IMG/VR virus record: IMGVR_UViG_3300029319_000314
Coordinates: 1-30,139 of that record
Source of the DNA: a virus
DNA length: 30,139 bases
Direction: 5' to 3' (one strand)
Positions within the stretch are counted from its first letter, which is position 1, and each line of letters opens with the position of its first letter. A model generated the notes under the pieces. The model made no database searches. It was not told where the DNA came from and saw only the letters and a program-made list of their open reading frames with translations. Both the position numbers and the translations under genes were made by a program. Below are positions 2,732-23,738 of this stretch, in pieces.

Positions 2732-4717
2732 ATGCAGATGCCTTCTATGCGGCAGCAACTTTTGATAGACCGGGACCGTGGGCTTGCGCTGGGAGCCTTT
2801 CTCGACAAAGTGGTACGAGACGCCAGCGCCAAGCGCAATGTGCCAAAGCTTGTTGGCGCGACCCTTGGCACCAGCCTGCAAGACATTGATGTTGACGCTC
2901 TGTTACGCGCCATCGAAAGAAGTGGAAGCACTGGCGAATCCTTCGACAGGCCAGGGGCATGGAGCGACCTTGGCCAAGAAGCGGAGGACCGGCGCAGGCT
3001 AAAGCGTCGAGAGTTGTATCCCGATGCTTATTTGGCAGAACAAAAAAGACAGGATGAGGCCCGTGCTAGTGCGATACCGGGCCGTGATCCCGGCCTAATT
3101 GATGAATTCAGGCGTATGGGCGGTCAGATGGAGACGCCGGTAGGCCCGGCGCTGCCTGGTGGCCCTGGCATGATGACGCCGGTGGGGCCAGTGGAAAGGC
3201 CAGCCGCTGAAGCAATGCCTGAACAGAAAACGGGCCCGGTATTCCGAGGCGTCAGGCCTGATCTGTTGCGGCACTTACAAAGCATAAGAGTTCCGCAGGC
3301 CACAGCGATTGAGGGAACAGATTATCGCCTTGGAGGTGCCCAAGACACCGGCAATATCTACCGCCAAGTGCCGTACCGCACCGAGGGAAACTGGCGTCGC
3401 GGTGGCGTCGAGTTGCCGTTCCGTACGGAAAGAGAGCGAATAACTGAAGAGGAATTGCTTGAAGAATTAGGAGAAGAAAGGGCTCGGCAAATACGGGAAC
3501 AGGATGCTTTTCCAGATGCTGTTGTTCGGCAACCCGTCGCAGAAAGGCCTGAGCCGCCACAGCGTCCCACGGTCTTTACGCCAGGCGACCAACAGATACT
3601 AAATCGACAAGGGGTGTCTGAATCCCTGCAGACGATTGATCCAAGTGCTTTTGTTGCCGACCAGCAAAGAGGTATGGATCCGCAGCTTGCTGGAGTGGAC
3701 TTAGAAGGCATGGCACCCGAAAGCCCGTCTTTCCTCTCCCGTCTGGGCAGCGGCATAAAAGACAACCCCGAGGTCGCGCTGCAAATAGCTGCGCTTCTTG
3801 GTGGCGTGGGCTCGGGGCTTATGGGCCGAGGCCGCTTAGCCAAGCAGCAGGCAGAGCAAGACGCTGCTAACCGGCAAGCCGCAGCCTATGCAAACGCTAT
3901 TAGCACTTTGACCCGTGGCCGCACTACGCCAGCAATGGCGCCGAGGCAGGTGCGCAGCACTCCCGGCACCGCTGAGACGATCATGGATGTCCTGGGCACA
4001 TTGGGCCAGGGCGGGGCACAGATCATGGCGGGACGCCGCCAGCAGCGCCAGGCCGAAGAAGACCGGCAGCGGGCCCAGGCCATGGAAGATTTTAAGATGC
4101 AGTACATGACCCGGGGTCAGGACATCGAACAGCGGGGTCAGGACATGGACCTGATGGGCCAAATGCTTCGGGCGAGTGGTGGGGCTGGAGCAGGGGGAGC
4201 TAGTGGCGCTGCGGCCCCAGGTGCCAACGAGATAGACGTTTTAGATCAGGTTATTGACGTAGCGGAGCAGCTCTACGAAGGAGCCCCGACCGGGCCCGTC
4301 ATGGGCATGTTCGGCACCAGCCCATACTCCCAGTATCTGGAGTCGGGCCAAGCTGCTTCGCAATACGACGGCTATCGAAACATCATTAAGGGTCAGATCG
4401 CCAAGCTGATCGGTGGCTCTCGTCCGAGTGACTTGGACATGCAGCTAGCTGACCAGATCGTCCCAACGCGACGTGACTTATCCGCACCGCAAAAGTTCAA
4501 TCTGCTGCGCCAGCTCAACCAGTTCCGCAGAGGACACGGCATGGAGGGGAACATCGGCCACATGATCGATCCCGGTGGCCTCACGTTTGCGGCCGGGCAG
4601 GCCGACATGAGCATGAACTTGCAAGCATTGTCTGATGCCCAGCTCTACCAATACGCGCAGCGTAACAGAAACGACCCAGCCGTAGAGGCTGAGCTGAACC
4701 GTCGATTGGGCAACTGA
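2732..4717 (+). CDS. Large internal virion or ejection protein candidate
   Basis: This 661-residue protein has its ATG two bases after the preceding stop and a weak Shine-Dalgarno site, as expected for a coupled operon gene. The N-terminal half is charged and Pro/Gly-rich. Around residues 345-370 there is a Gly/Ala/Leu hydrophobic stretch (LQIAALLGGVGSGLMG) that could insert in a membrane. It is followed by a Gln/Arg/Ala-rich helical region with QRGQDM repeats near residue 465 and a Gly/Ala linker (about 480-500). The C-terminal part is more globular (GQIAKLIGGSRPSDLDMQLA). A size of about 70 kDa, its place before the tail fibre and the amphipathic segments fit an internal core or DNA-ejection protein. 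No enzyme motif was seen. Confidence 0.65.
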   Translation: MQMPSMRQQLLIDRDRGLALGAFLDKVVRDASAKRNVPKLVGATLGTSLQDIDVDALLRAIERSGSTGESFDRPGAWSDLGQEAEDRRRLKRRELYPDAYLAEQKRQDEARASAIPGRDPGLIDEFRRMGGQMETPVGPALPGGPGMMTPVGPVERPAAEAMPEQKTGPVFRGVRPDLLRHLQSIRVPQATAIEGTDYRLGGAQDTGNIYRQVPYRTEGNWRRGGVELPFRTERERITEEELLEELGEERARQIREQDAFPDAVVRQPVAERPEPPQRPTVFTPGDQQILNRQGVSESLQTIDPSAFVADQQRGMDPQLAGVDLEGMAPESPSFLSRLGSGIKDNPEVALQIAALLGGVGSGLMGRGRLAKQQAEQDAANRQAAAYANAISTLTRGRTTPAMAPRQVRSTPGTAETIMDVLGTLGQGGAQIMAGRRQQRQAEEDRQRAQAMEDFKMQYMTRGQDIEQRGQDMDLMGQMLRASGGAGAGGASGAAAPGANEIDVLDQVIDVAEQLYEGAPTGPVMGMFGTSPYSQYLESGQAASQYDGYRNIIKGQIAKLIGGSRPSDLDMQLADQIVPTRRDLSAPQKFNLLRQLNQFRRGHGMEGNIGHMIDPGGLTFAAGQADMSMNLQALSDAQLYQYAQRNRNDPAVEAELNRRLGN

Positions 4718-17161: not shown

Positions 17162-17339
17162 GGCGATGCCTCCCAATGTTGGTTGTGGGCCGTTCTGGGA
17201 TGTTCTGGGGGGCGTAGAGCTTGCTGATCCGCAATCCACGCAATACGAGGCGTCCGTCGTCCGACAGAGTGCTAGTAGAGGTGCTACTGGAGTGGTATTT
17301 CTGATTGCGGAAATGCTGCGAGGATGCTACATTATGCAT
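17145..17339 (-). CDS. Small hypothetical protein, first gene of the int/replication operon
   Basis: A 64-residue protein. ATG 17339 is picked because a near-perfect AAGGAGG lies eight bases upstream; a TTG two codons earlier has worse spacing. The protein is basic, with a Ser/Thr run (HSSSTSTSTLSDDGRL) and an Arg/His-rich end (TNIGRHRHVPSR). No domain is recognised. It is the first reading frame after the leader at 17340-17460, which carries the shared TAGCAG hairpin and CCACCCTATCC box. It could be a true early protein or a leader peptide. Confidence 0.5.
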   Translation of the reverse strand: MHNVASSQHFRNQKYHSSSTSTSTLSDDGRLVLRGLRISKLYAPQNIPERPTTNIGRHRHVPSR

Positions 17340-17384
17340 GCACAAAGCCTCCTTGTTTACGAGCCTTAAAACTCGTTGACATAC

Positions 17385-17444
17385 CCCTGGGATAGGGTGG
17401 GTTTTGTTGTTTTAGCCTGGCGGGGGCTGCTACCCCTGCCGGGC
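17385..17444 (-). promoter_or_regulatory. Leader element B: TAGCAG-loop hairpin plus CCACCCTATCC box
   Basis: Read leftward, a 12-base-pair stem (17415-17426 with 17433-17444, two wobbles) closes the six-base loop TAGCAG. It is followed 14 bases later by CCACCCTATCCCAGG (down to 17388). The same loop and box occur in the leaders at 21091-21129 and 21487-21515. It lies just before the int/replication operon. No convincing sigma70 -10/-35 pair was found for that operon here. Confidence 0.5.
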
Positions 17445-17453
17445 GTTTTTTTT
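17415..17453 (+). terminator. Rho-independent terminator, rightward sense
   Basis: GCCTGGCGGGGG at 17415-17426 pairs with CCCCTGCCGGGC at 17433-17444 over a six-base loop. Eight T residues follow at 17446-17453. On the plus strand this is a textbook intrinsic terminator and would stop transcripts running against the leftward operons. Read leftward, the same hairpin lacks a T-run, so it may only pause the repressor transcript. Confidence 0.75.
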
Positions 17454-17461
17454 GCTATTCG

Positions 17462-18220
17462 CTATCGAATTGGCGCTGCTTGGTCAAATATGTTTGATCC
17501 GGTGCCGTGCTGATACGTCACCGTGCCTGCGCCAGGCACCCAATTATGATGGGTTATTGTCGGTGTGATCTTTGCTTCGACGATGTCTTTGATATTGTGG
17601 CCCAGGCCCAGCACCGAAGCGCTCTCGTATCTCGTGTACCCAGAGTCGCGGTAATAGTAGCATACGGTCGATACGAGCAGTAGGCTACCGGAGATAATCT
17701 TTGCGCTCACGGGGTGGAATGAGGTCTTTTCAGCCACCTCATAATTAATTTTCCATTCGTCTTGGGCGCTTAAGCCCCAGGCGTCGTGGCCGTTTTCTCG
17801 CTTCGAAGCCACCCTAATCAGAGTCATCCCATTAAACGGCTCTACCTTTGGATCAAAGCCCGTGCAGAAATACGTACTAGCAAGGTACGGCCGCATCTTC
17901 TCATAACCGGCCTGCCCGGCGTACAGTGTCTTGCCCCACAGCAGCAGCAGGTCGTTAATGGCCGTGACGGGCGTCAAATTAACGTCGTCTACTACGGTCG
18001 GCTTGCTATCCACGATCCAAGCGGGGCTCAGGGAGAGGCCAGCGGCGATTTTGTCGATTGTGTCAGAGCTGATATTTGCCTCGTCATTCGACATAAATCG
18101 GTGCAGAGTTGAATACCCAATGTCGCACTTACGGGCTACTTCTTTAAGGGATGTCTGGTGCGACAATACGTAGGCTTCCAGATTTTCTCTCACGGCAATC
18201 GCGGTAGGTGTGCGCGGCAT
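17462..18220 (-). CDS. Repressor-like HTH regulator
   Basis: A 252-residue protein with GGAGGAG before ATG 18220. Residues 14-60 (EAYVLSHQTSLKEVARKCDI then GYSTLHRFMSNDE) form a lambda-repressor/Cro-type HTH. After that (DTIDKIAAGLSLSPAWIVDS) the helical domain closes. The C-terminal 180 residues look globular, with many aromatics and beta character (ISGSLLLVSTVCYYYRDSGY). They do not show the Ser/Lys pair of a LexA/S24 autopeptidase that I could recognise. It sits apart from the early operon, with its own promoter at 18573-18601 and a terminator upstream. By place and size it is the best candidate for the lysogeny repressor; induction may not be by RecA-style cleavage. Confidence 0.75.
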   Translation of the reverse strand: MPRTPTAIAVRENLEAYVLSHQTSLKEVARKCDIGYSTLHRFMSNDEANISSDTIDKIAAGLSLSPAWIVDSKPTVVDDVNLTPVTAINDLLLLWGKTLYAGQAGYEKMRPYLASTYFCTGFDPKVEPFNGMTLIRVASKRENGHDAWGLSAQDEWKINYEVAEKTSFHPVSAKIISGSLLLVSTVCYYYRDSGYTRYESASVLGLGHNIKDIVEAKITPTITHHNWVPGAGTVTYQHGTGSNIFDQAAPIR

Positions 18221-19314: not shown

Positions 19315-19659
19315 CTATTGCTCCTCTGCTGTGTCAAGGTGTTCTGCCTTAAACTGCGTCCATGCCTGCTGCTTGCCCGATTCGCGCTGCTGCTCAGGCC
19401 ATTGATCGAAGGATTTGCAATGATTAAATAGCCAGAGGCGCGTTAGTTCAAATGCTGCATCAGATGCGACGGCATTTTCTTTTGTTTGCCAAACTCTTAT
19501 GCGCCAGTGGCCACACAGATTATTGCACCACTCAACGTGCCGCTTGTAGTGCGAAAATTTTTTCTGCAATAGATCTACAAACTCCCGCCTATCTATGCTT
19601 TGGTTCCTTTTTTTATTCCTCTTCGCGCTGCGTCTGTCTATCAGCACTTTGTTGGCCAT
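19315..19659 (-). CDS. Basic early protein with Arg-rich N terminus
   Basis: A 114-residue protein with a strong AGGAGG site before ATG 19659. The first 26 residues are very basic (DRRSAKRNKKRNQSIDRREF). The middle has aromatic and Cys residues (VEWCNNLCGHWRIRVWQTKE) and the end is polar (AEHLDTAEEQ). Arg-rich N termini of this kind bind RNA hairpins in lambdoid N antiterminators, and the window has repeated leader hairpins. A link is an attractive guess without direct support. No family is recognised. It is an early gene in the operon starting at the 21140-21168 promoter. Confidence 0.65.
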   Translation of the reverse strand: MANKVLIDRRSAKRNKKRNQSIDRREFVDLLQKKFSHYKRHVEWCNNLCGHWRIRVWQTKENAVASDAAFELTRLWLFNHCKSFDQWPEQQRESGKQQAWTQFKAEHLDTAEEQ

Positions 19660-20501: not shown

Positions 20502-21083
20502 CTAGCACTCCTCCATGGGGATCTCGTCCAGCGGGCAGATCGGGGTGCCAAACTCTAAGTATTTGCGCGTGGTGCGGACGGTGTATCCGCAGTCCAGGCA
20601 CTGGCACTTGATCAATCGGGTGGACTGCTTCTTGGCTCCGCTGCGGGCCATCAGCGTCGCGTGGGGGTAATCGCCCAGCGCATCGATCATCGGCTGCACG
20701 TCGCGTTTAAACGCTTCCGACTCTGTCGTGGCCGTCATCTTGCCCTCCAGCCCAATCGCCAGGGCGCACTTGCGGAAGGGCCCCTTGTGGCCGCAGGCCA
20801 GGCCGACCGTGGCGTGGATCAGCTCGTGCGCCAGGACACCGGCAACCCGCATCGAATCCTCCAGGGTGGGGCTGATGAAGATCTCAAACGTCTCGTCGCC
20901 GCTGCACTGATTCGACCAGCATTCCCCGATGCGCCGGGCCTTGCGGCTCAAAGCGCTTTGGGACGGGAAGCCGCAGCTCACGCGCACATTGTCGGGGATG
21001 GTGTAGCCCTGGTCCGTGAAGTGGGGCCTGAGCTGGTCGGTCATCTCAGCTAGCCAGGCTTCGCGTTTGGCGGGTGTGGCCAT
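20502..21083 (-). CDS. SprT-like zinc metalloprotease-domain protein
   Basis: A 193-residue protein, first in the leftward early operon. ATG 21083 is set by CCCAGGAGG just upstream; the longer frame to 21134 overlaps the leader hairpin. The HExxH zinc site is HELIH at 86-90, with a further His at 99 (ACGHKGPF). The helix GPFRKCALAIGLEGKMT is typical of SprT/Spartan domains. A C-terminal zinc ribbon uses Cys160, Cys162, Cys165 and Cys183 (IKCQCLDCGYTVRTTRKY, then GTPICPL). Eukaryotic SPRTN cleaves DNA-protein crosslinks. Phage members are common but mostly of unknown role, perhaps removing host or phage proteins from DNA. Confidence 0.85.
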   Translation of the reverse strand: MATPAKREAWLAEMTDQLRPHFTDQGYTIPDNVRVSCGFPSQSALSRKARRIGECWSNQCSGDETFEIFISPTLEDSMRVAGVLAHELIHATVGLACGHKGPFRKCALAIGLEGKMTATTESEAFKRDVQPMIDALGDYPHATLMARSGAKKQSTRLIKCQCLDCGYTVRTTRKYLEFGTPICPLDEIPMEEC

Positions 21084-21090
21084 GTGATAT

Positions 21091-21129
21091 CCTCCTGGGA
21101 TAGGGTGGGGTATGAGGGCTGCTACCCTC
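21091..21129 (-). promoter_or_regulatory. Leader element A: TAGCAG-loop hairpin plus CCACCCTATCC box
   Basis: Read leftward, just after the promoter, GAGGG (21129-21125), the loop TAGCAG and CCCTC (21118-21114) form a short hairpin. Five bases later comes CCACCCTATCCCAGGAGG (21108-21091), which includes the ribosome site of the SprT gene. The loop and box match the elements at 17385-17444 and 21487-21515. Confidence 0.55.
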
Positions 21130-21139
21130 GACACACTTC

Positions 21140-21168
21140 AATATAGCGTGCGCTATACGAGATGTCAA
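21140..21168 (-). promoter_or_regulatory. Leftward early promoter with internal operator palindrome
   Basis: Read leftward, TTGACA (21168-21163), a 17-base spacer and TATATT (21145-21140) form a near-consensus sigma70 promoter for the SprT-to-XRE operon. The spacer and -10 are covered by TATAGCG-TG-CGCTATA (21143-21158), two 7-base arms around two central bases. This is a typical place for a repressor to act. Confidence 0.85.
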
Positions 21169-21188
21169 GCCCTAATTTAATTTTTCTG

Positions 21189-21244
21189 CAATCGCCAATC
21201 GCCAATCCGCAATCGCCAATCCGCAATCCGCAATCCGCAATCGA
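21189..21244 (+). repeat. Eight tandem 7-bp iterons CAATCSS
   Basis: CAATC begins at 21189, 21196, 21203, 21210, 21217, 21224, 21231 and 21238, exactly seven bases apart. The two following bases are GC, CG or, in the last copy, GA. AT-rich sequence lies on both sides. Short tandem iterons between divergent promoters suit an initiator-binding origin or a cooperative regulator site. Confidence 0.9.
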
Positions 21245-21250
21245 TAATCT

Positions 21251-21314
21251 TATATACGTGCGCGTGCGTGTGCATGTGCGTGTGTGCGCGTATGTATGCG
21301 CGTGTGCGTGTGCA
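21251..21314. repeat. 64-bp perfect alternating pyrimidine-purine tract
   Basis: Every base from 21251 to 21314 alternates pyrimidine and purine. It is mainly TG and CG steps with a few TA and CA. Such tracts can adopt left-handed Z-DNA under negative supercoiling. It lies directly next to the iterons. A leftward open frame across it (to 21534) is low complexity and not coding. Confidence 0.9.
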
Positions 21315-21318
21315 ATAT

Positions 21319-21415
21319 AGGCCAGGGCAGGGCAGGCCAGGGCAGGCCAGGGCCAGGGCCAGGGCCTGCAGGCCTGGGGCCTGGGGCCTGGGCTCGGGCT
21401 GCAGGTGGGGGTCTG
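21319..21415 (+). repeat. GC-rich CAGGGC/GGCCTGGG repeat tract
   Basis: A run of overlapping GGCCAGGGCA, CAGGGC and GGGCCTG units covers this stretch, strongly G-rich on the plus strand, with two CTGCAGG palindromes. It separates the alternating tract from an A-rich stretch and the rightward promoter. It may form G-rich secondary structure. No gene is seen. Confidence 0.8.
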
Positions 21416-21446
21416 AAAAAAATATGAGGGGATAGAAAAAAAGCGC

Positions 21447-21474
21447 TTGACATATAGCGTACGCGATATATATT
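21447..21474 (+). promoter_or_regulatory. Rightward promoter with operator-like palindrome
   Basis: TTGACA (21447-21452), a 16-base spacer and TATATT (21469-21474) form a strong sigma70-type promoter for the genes starting at 21528. The spacer begins with TATAGCG-TA-CGCGATA, an imperfect copy of the palindrome in the divergent leftward promoter, so one regulator could control both. Confidence 0.8.
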
Positions 21475-21486
21475 TACAGGCATAAC

Positions 21487-21523
21487 GGGCTTAGCAGGGC
21501 CCACCCACCCTATCCTTGGAGGA
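21487..21523 (+). promoter_or_regulatory. Leader element C: TAGCAG-loop hairpin plus CCACCCTATCC box
   Basis: GGGC (21487-21490) and GCCC (21499-21502) enclose TTAGCAGG. Two bases later comes CCACCCTATCC (21505-21515), which runs into the ribosome site TTGGAGGA before ATG 21528. It is the rightward counterpart of elements A and B. Confidence 0.5.
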
Positions 21524-21527
21524 TGAC

Positions 21528-21695
21528 ATGACACACTCGTTTTTAGTATCTCGGGCAGTACGCAACAACAAGGGCCAGTTTACCGGCCGGTACCGGCTGG
21601 GGTTTAGCTTGCCCGGGCTGGGCAAGATTGACAAGAGCTGGGCCGGGCTGCAGGTGGCTGTATTGGTTTTGGTTTATCTCGGTTTGGTGGCCTAG
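21528..21695 (+). CDS. 55-residue protein with C-terminal membrane helix
   Basis: ATG 21528 has TGGAGG seven bases upstream and follows promoter and leader element C. The first 38 residues are basic and polar (MTHSFLVSRAVRNNKGQFTG). Residues 39-55 are a membrane helix (WAGLQVAVLVLVYLGLVA) that ends at the stop codon, so the protein is tail-anchored. It ends one base before the next gene. No family is recognised. Confidence 0.7.
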   Translation: MTHSFLVSRAVRNNKGQFTGRYRLGFSLPGLGKIDKSWAGLQVAVLVLVYLGLVA

Positions 21696-22627: not shown

Positions 22628-22652
22628 CCCCAGGGCCCCAGGCCCTTCCTGA

Positions 22653-22689
22653 AGCCCCAGGAGCCCCTATAAGGGCCCTGGGGCTTTTT
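22653..22689 (+). terminator. Rho-independent terminator after the GP88 gene
   Basis: AGCCCCAG (22653-22660) pairs with CTGGGGCT (22678-22685). An inner GCCC/GGGC pair and one bulge surround a six-base loop, and TTTTT follows to 22689. It stands 26 bases after the stop of the GP88-family gene and closes the small rightward operon. Confidence 0.85.
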
Positions 22690-22690
22690 G

Positions 22691-22935
22691 TTTGGCAAAC
22701 AAGGCCCCTAGTACTAGGTCCTAGTAGTAGGGGCCCAGGCCTAGGGGCTGGGGCCCTGGGGCTGGGCCTAGGCCCTGGGCCCTAGTACCTGGGCCCTAGG
22801 TACCTAGGACCCAGGGCCCCAGGGTCCCAGGGATCCCCCAGGGGCCTAGTACCTAGGTCGATCCCTAGGTAGATCCCCAGGCCCTAGCCCAGGGCCCAGG
22901 GCCAGGCCTGGGCCGGGCCTGGGCCGGGCTCGGTA
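22691..22935. repeat. Palindrome-mosaic region (CCTAGG, GGGCCC, GGTACC vocabulary)
   Basis: About 245 bases consist almost only of short self-complementary words: six CCTAGG, six GGGCCC, plus AGTACT, GGTACC, GGATCC and AGGCCT. A near-perfect 28-base inverted repeat lies at 22788-22815. There is no plausible gene in any frame. The region can fold into many alternative hairpins on either strand. Confidence 0.85.
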
Positions 22936-22961
22936 GGCTTGGTAGATCGGGGCTGGTATAC

Positions 22962-22990
22962 TTGAAACCGTGTGTAATCCTTTCTCTATT
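22962..22990 (+). promoter_or_regulatory. Possible rightward late promoter
   Basis: TTGAAA (22962-22967), a 17-base spacer and TCTATT (22985-22990) make a weak sigma70-like promoter. It faces the packaging genes in an otherwise gene-free, locally AT-richer patch. ACCCACCCGATAGCA follows shortly after, a partial echo of the leader box. It is only a candidate. Confidence 0.3.
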
Positions 22991-23738
22991 CTCTCATTAC
23001 CCACCCGATAGCATTAGAGCCCGGCTCGGGCCCTGGCCCGTTTAAACGGGGCCCTGGGGCCCGGGCTGGGCCCAGGCCAGGGCCCATGTGGTAAAACTCG
23101 GGTAAAACCCGGGCCCAGGCCCTGGCCTAAGTCTAGTCTAGGCCTGGGCTTAGCTGGGCCCTGGCGTATATCTAGCTCATATGTGCCCGGGCTTTGGGCC
23201 TGGCTGGGCCCGGGCTCGGGTCTGGGCTCGGGCCCTGGAGGCGAAGCGACCAGGCCCATCCTTCGATCGATCCGCATGCGTATATACGCTCCCCCACATA
23301 GGCCTTCCCAGGGCCTTCCCGGGACCTTCCCGGGGTCTTCCCTCGGACCCGGGCCTACGCTCTGGGCTTCCCCTGGTTTCCGGTCCCAAAGGGGCTCAAG
23401 CATGAGCCAGACTGTGGGGCCCTTTGCAAACAAGGGCTTACGTCCAGTTTCGCTCCAAAGGGGCTCAAATCCTTGCGCCTTTAGGGCTAAGGGTGTTTAA
23501 ACGCAGCTTGGGCCTCCGACCCGACCTGGGGGGGCCTTACCCTCTGATTCCCGTAGGTACCTGATTTTACCCTGGAATACTGGATAGGAAATATGGCGCA
23601 GGGAATTGGCCTGTCTTGCCCGGTGTACCTAAAGCCTTGAAAGTCCTTGCGCCCGTTGGGTTTGCGTGATGATTTTTATAGCGAGGGCATGTTTAAACGT
23701 GCCTTTATCCTCCTCGGGTAGGGGTACCCGACTCGGCT

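Follow-up and report, generated by a model that had tools for sequence, protein, structure and literature searches.

Phage-encoded antisense RNAs that serve immunity or lysogeny have been described as c4 in P1 and P7 and as sar in P22; both pair around the ribosome binding site of their target, the antirepressor gene ant, through complementary stretches placed in loops (PMC12197685). The putative RNA described here resembles them in that its complementarity spans the ribosome binding sites of its targets (the starts of the early operons PL and PR, the best two of 97) and is partly loop-borne (terminator loop CUGCUA against leader loops UAGCAG). Unlike c4 and sar, it would target two early operons that diverge and that do not begin with a recognised antirepressor gene; its own gene lies ~4 kb away from them beside the repressor gene, and the loop of the intrinsic terminator at its 3' end would join the contact.

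Two-part pairing of this kind, with an imperfect duplex over the Shine-Dalgarno site (SD) and a loop-loop contact, is known for RsaA-mgrA and RNAIII-coa of Staphylococcus aureus (PMC3961350, PMC2837412). These are host regulatory RNAs and the target loop lies in the coding region, whereas the present locus belongs to a phage genome and the loop is that of a 5'-terminal hairpin upstream of a conserved box in both targets. Repeated boxes next to start codons are also found in Cluster K mycobacteriophages (SAS/ESAS): the SAS consensus GGGATAGGAGCCC, which contains AGGAG, lies 3-7 bp before start codons in many copies per genome, about half of the sites have an upstream inverted repeat, and the ESAS repeats were judged not to be RNA hairpins (PMC3203893). 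Some Cluster K genomes additionally have one site in opposite orientation that is not linked to a gene start (PMC3203893). Finally, the nut sites of lambda and the put sites of HK022 are RNA elements at the start of the PL and PR transcripts, as are the two leader elements reported below.

The stretch of DNA analysed (the window) is an entire virus record of 30,139 bases. It has genes for an integrase, an HTH repressor, a P22-like portal, and a terminase, and the uncultured phage is temperate. A contig that is 98% identical over 6 kb (L114; window 24056 to the end, 30139) continues for ~6 kb past the window end and then matches the window start (86.6% identity); judged from this overlap, the genome probably has a circular map of ~36 kb, of which the record is a cut version. 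No DNA match and no homologue of the repressor or the portal was found among phage records. A 318-nt repeat was seen in three tandem copies (724-1659) within the gene at 75-2183. One syntenic relative was found, L140 (IMGVR_UViG_3300028925_013498), a partial contig of 14.9 kb with protein identities to the window of 70% for GP88, 75% for the RusA-like protein, and 53% for the 16347 protein.

Leaders of the divergent early operons

The 11-mer CCACCCTATCC, here called the box, was located at exactly three sites in the window: 17390-17400 (-), 21098-21108 (-), and 21505-21515 (+). It was absent from all 100 dinucleotide-preserving shuffles. TAGCAG followed by the box within 2-32 bases was found three times in the window and never in the same 100 shuffles, so the repeated element is real and not a chance product. 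Hairpins of 3 bp or more with TAGCAG in the loop were also limited to three in the window, all of them members of this set. An earlier note on this DNA had described the three copies as leaders with a hairpin and a box. The copies stand, and two of them (copies 2 and 3) form the 5' leaders of PL and PR, the early operons that diverge from each other (Table 1); copy 1 had been read on the wrong strand.

Table 1. Positions in the window of the early leaders, the repressor gene, and the proposed antisense RNA
Feature	Position	Strand	Remark
Weak candidate promoter TTGCGG-17-TACATT, TG extension	17305-17333	+	Expected RNA start ~17340
Antisense segment of the proposed RNA (CCCCTGGGATAGGGTGGGT)	17384-17402	+	Complementary to box and SD of PL and PR
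Intrinsic terminator, loop CTGCTA (17427-17432), then G and TTTTTTTT	17415-17453	+	
HTH repressor gene	17462-18220	-	Convergent with the proposed RNA
Promoter of the repressor gene, TTGACA-17-TATAGT	18601-18573	-	
First PL gene, SprT-like protein (phrog_6361)	20502-21083	-	ATG at 21083
PL box CCACCCTATCC, then CA, then SD GGAGG	21091-21108	-	
PL leader hairpin GAGGG[TAGCAG]CCCTC	21114-21129	-	5' end of the expected transcript
PL promoter TTGACA-17-TATATT	21168-21140	-	
Predicted PL operator palindrome GTATAGCGCACGCTATAT	21141-21158		Inside the PL promoter
PR promoter TTGACA-16-TATATT	21447-21474	+	
Predicted PR operator ATATAGCGTACGCGATAT	21452-21469		Within the PR promoter
PR leader hairpin GGGCT[TAGCAG]GGCCC	21487-21502	+	
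PR box CCACCCTATCC, then TT, then SD GGAGG	21505-21522	+	

Both leader copies lie just downstream of near-consensus promoters, as had been claimed before. The PL and PR promoters have 11 of 12 sigma-70-type matches each and scores of 16.5 and 15.7, the 99th percentile of the best sites per 150 nt being 12.2. Palindromes of the type TATAGCG-N2-CGCTATA were found once in each of these promoters and nowhere else, and they are probably operators bound by the phage repressor. In both leader RNAs, a hairpin that starts a few bases from the expected RNA start (GAGGG[UAGCAG]CCCUC in PL, GGGCU[UAGCAG]GGCCC in PR) is followed by CCACCCUAUCC, two bases, GGAGG, and ATG. The first PR gene encodes a small 55-aa protein of the GP88 operon (ATG at 21528); neither this protein nor the first PL protein matches an antirepressor family.

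The relative has the same arrangement in both leaders, GAGCC[UAGCAG]GGCUC..CACCCACUCUAUCCUAGGGGG..AUG in PR and CAGUCGAGAU[UAGCAG]AUCCGAUUG..CCACCCUACCCCAGGAGG..AUG in PL. The earlier note had named relatives lacking the loop and the box at these places as the outcome that would speak against its element. L140 keeps both, together with the spacing between box and SD, in both leaders, and its stems have been replaced with compensation, which bears out the note's description of changing stems around a kept loop and box. The promoters and operators of L140 differ in sequence from those of the window. When the five loop-proximal stem pairs were aligned across the four leaders, three of the five had changed on both sides and 90% of the cells paired; stem covariation was 0.80 vs 0.25 in shuffles, a value reached by 5 of 500 shuffles (with only four sequences compared). 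Judged by this conservation, hairpin and box in the two early leaders make up a genuine RNA element. The distance from the end of the box to the SD is exactly 2 nt in all four leaders and the distance from hairpin to box varies, which points to a box tied to translation, not to the hairpin.

Other starts in the window and in L140 have similar C-rich stretches before AGGAGG, and the leaders might therefore be nothing but a favoured ribosome-site context with 5' stabilising hairpins, shared within one phage group and served by no dedicated regulator. Such a context would not need the same hexaloop on unrelated stems in all four leaders, and the 11-mer never appeared in shuffles; this explanation is considered very improbable.

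The earlier note had likened the element to lambdoid nut or HK022 put sites, at which polymerase starting at PL and PR would be set to read through early terminators. Its place at the 5' ends of both early transcripts agrees with antitermination, as do the conserved loop and box on changing stems and a strong leftward terminator (18681-18640, with the Cro-like HTH gene on one side and the repressor promoter on the other) that separates the first PL genes from later ones. The fixed spacing, however, locks the box to the SD, not to the hairpin; no boxA-like or nut-like sequence was found in either leader, and no Rfam family, nut and put included, matched at the gathering threshold. The Arg-rich protein (19315-19659) proposed as partner has no homologue in the L140 contig despite the conserved leaders there. 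With the properties of copy 1 given below, the nut/put design is not retained, and antitermination is regarded as quite improbable.

In both phages, the region between the divergent early promoters contains short tandem repeats (CAATCCG-type at 21189-21320 in the window, GATTAGA at 4424-4640 in L140) that adjoin GTGCGTGTGC-like alternating tracts and GGCCAGGGC/GGGCTGGCC repeats; this region is possibly a replication origin.

A putative rightward RNA beside the repressor gene

Copy 1 (17385-17444) starts 18 nt past the stop codon of the leftward repressor gene. In the leftward direction no good promoter was found for it (best upstream score 5.5, window median 5.3), and its weak SD-like stretch has no start codon at a usable distance. 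Copy 1 is neither a leader nor the start of a transcription unit, which is a further point against antitermination, and the asymmetry of its two strands favours the plus strand. On that strand the stem is a perfect 12 bp (10 G-C and 2 G-U; -26.0 kcal/mol) with a U8 tail, while on the minus strand 10 pairs form, with 2 A-C mismatches (-19.7), and no U-run follows, the G-U pairs of the one being the A-C mismatches of the other. The 12-pair stem reported earlier thus exists only on the plus strand and would not form in a leftward RNA. The TTTTTTTT run that follows it on the plus strand is absent from the earlier note.

As RNA, the plus-strand hairpin reads GCCUGGCGGGGG[CUGCUA]CCCCUGCCGGGC, then G and eight U, and it is the strongest intrinsic terminator of the window; no terminator with a stem of at least 10 and at least 7 T in 9 occurred in the shuffles. 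Because the stem asymmetry, the U-run, and the strongest terminator all lie on the plus strand, the functional hairpin of copy 1 appears to be that of a rightward RNA with loop CUGCUA and upstream stretch CCCCUGGGAUAGGGUGGG. The candidate promoter of this RNA scored 7.3 (best site per 150 nt: median 5.3, 90th percentile 8.6). The proposed RNA and the repressor gene converge within the immunity region. With a start at ~17340, the RNA would in addition be antisense, at its 5' end, to the SD of a small leftward ORF that starts at 17339. In the predicted fold the terminator loop is fully unpaired, and the antisense segment is partly paired in the longer, 113-nt form.

The candidate RNA carries GGGAUAGGGUGGG, the complement of box and SD in both leaders, and its terminator loop is complementary to the UAGCAG loops of both. 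For a ranking of duplexes, start sites were defined by an SD-like stretch and an ORF of at least 40 codons, and the 40-nt upstream part of the RNA was used as the query. Among the 97 start sites of the window, PL was best (-42.9 kcal/mol) and PR second (-39.4; mean -21.0, sd 5.1), and among 50 in L140, PR was best (-44.2) and PL second (-36.5); the core complementarity is the shared motif seen from the other strand and hence not independent evidence. Evidence that is independent of it comes from the strand asymmetry, the terminator, the complementary loop, and the place in the immunity region.

An identical 27-nt element, TTATCCTCCTCGGGTAGGGGTACCCGA, was observed just upstream of the rightward late operon in both phages (23706-23732 (+) in the window, ~1935-1905 (-) in L140). 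It includes the anti-SD CCUCCU together with a hairpin of 7 bp whose loop is GGGG. As a candidate for another antisense RNA, the rightward element at 23706-23732 was rejected, its duplex ranking not being specific for PL and PR. In this neighbourhood L127 has the adjacent TCCTCCTCGGCTGGGTAGGAATTGAATG stretch of L140, and L118 and L121 have TTTTCCTCCT..GGGGG at the position of the element. A long non-coding GC-rich stretch with GGGCCC/CCTAGG-type palindromic repeats and terminator-like hairpins follows the GP88 gene in both phages (22630-23240 in the window, 2160-2810 in L140).

Other carriers and possible readers of the element

Searches of IMG/VR and of 84,980 genomes yielded no carrier besides the L140 leaders. 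In IMG/VR, the exact leader pattern gave 26 matches, all without hairpin and ribosome site and rejected as chance; a looser pattern returned only L140 and chance matches, and the terminator-RNA pattern gave 11 matches, none with a stem longer than 3 bp. The single match of the leader pattern in the 84,980 genomes, in a Chloroflexi MAG, has a 3-bp stem and no homologues and was likewise dismissed as chance. The SprT relatives L030-L033 have no such leaders. L121, a more distant syntenic phage (portal 74% identical), has another leader box (CACACCCAAAC), and no antisense RNA was found in it. Since its early leaders share this different box, the leader box seems to be particular to each phage of the group. 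The boxes in the L121 leaders at 2541-2590, 4306-4355 (-) and 4560-4604 (+) read CACACCCAAACCAGAGGAGGATTACCC twice, with one difference, and CACACCCAACAAAG once.

The candidate RNA was thus found in a single genome. Neither it nor a repressor was seen in the 14.9-kb L140 contig, and the syntenic position, flanked by the genes for the Cro-like HTH protein and the membrane protein, lacks both; either both lie outside this contig, or the leader element has another reader. Such a reader could be a phage or host protein that recognises the leader in sense and acts at the level of translation, with the element as an operator or start-associated element and copy 1 as a duplicate in inverted orientation, its hairpin having turned into a terminator by chance. 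A sense reader fits the L140 leaders, which keep loop and box without a visible antisense RNA, and the box placed 2 nt from the SD in every leader; extended ribosome sites of a similar kind (TATCCCAGGAGGATA) are present where the L140 integrase gene starts, and Cluster K mycobacteriophages carry SAS/ESAS at many starts (PMC3203893). It leaves unexplained why copy 1 is an exact antisense of box and loop, with the best terminator and in the immunity region, and no candidate RNA-binding protein common to both phages is linked to the element. The sense strand here departs from the SAS consensus, reading CCACCCTATCC and then SD. The protein-read RNA element of the earlier note is a fair reading of the conserved leaders, copy 1 being better read as an antisense RNA gene, and a sense reader is overall held to be unlikely.

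A proposed second layer of immunity

The reading leaned towards, with modest confidence, is that a trans-acting antisense RNA blocks translation from both leaders and forms a second immunity layer behind the repressor. The plus strand at ~17340-17453, beside the repressor gene, would encode a short RNA ending in the intrinsic terminator. Its terminator loop CUGCUA would kiss the UAGCAG loop of the 5' hairpins of both early mRNAs, after which the segment GGGAUAGGGUGGG would form a duplex over box and SD (PL to SprT, PR to GP88). Kissing and duplex together would block translation of both early operons in trans and so add to the repressor in silencing the dormant phage. If transcription of the repressor operon read through leftward, its product would be perfectly antisense to this RNA and could titrate it. 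The more specific proposal, that one RNA silences both operons by this two-part contact and, with the repressor acting on the same promoters, makes a double-layer immunity switch, is plausible without reaching probable.

From features present in the sequences (a leader element common to PL and PR and kept in L140, the terminator on the plus strand, and the complementarities with their rank) and from the structure prediction, we infer that the RNA is transcribed, pairs with its targets in the cell, represses them, and has a role in lysogeny. The weak promoter, the absence of the RNA from the L140 contig, the partly paired antisense segment, and first targets that are no antirepressors count against the antisense reading.

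Phage immunity is usually explained by DNA-binding repressors, and the classic RNA examples, c4, sar, and OOP, act on one gene or operon each. If the antisense reading is true, one RNA would reach both early operons at their leaders, by way of a loop and box that they share and that evolution has held fixed, and would make a compact second lock. A repeated leader box with one reverse-oriented copy ending in a terminator may then serve as a search rule for other phages. Reverse-oriented start-associated sites are on record in Cluster K, are unexplained in the literature, and are worth checking; the single reverse SAS of Mycobacterium phage Anaya (L241 29871-29883) has no obvious U-tailed terminator after the site. 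In the present phage, the two early operons would be held by the repressor at their promoters and by the RNA at their leaders.
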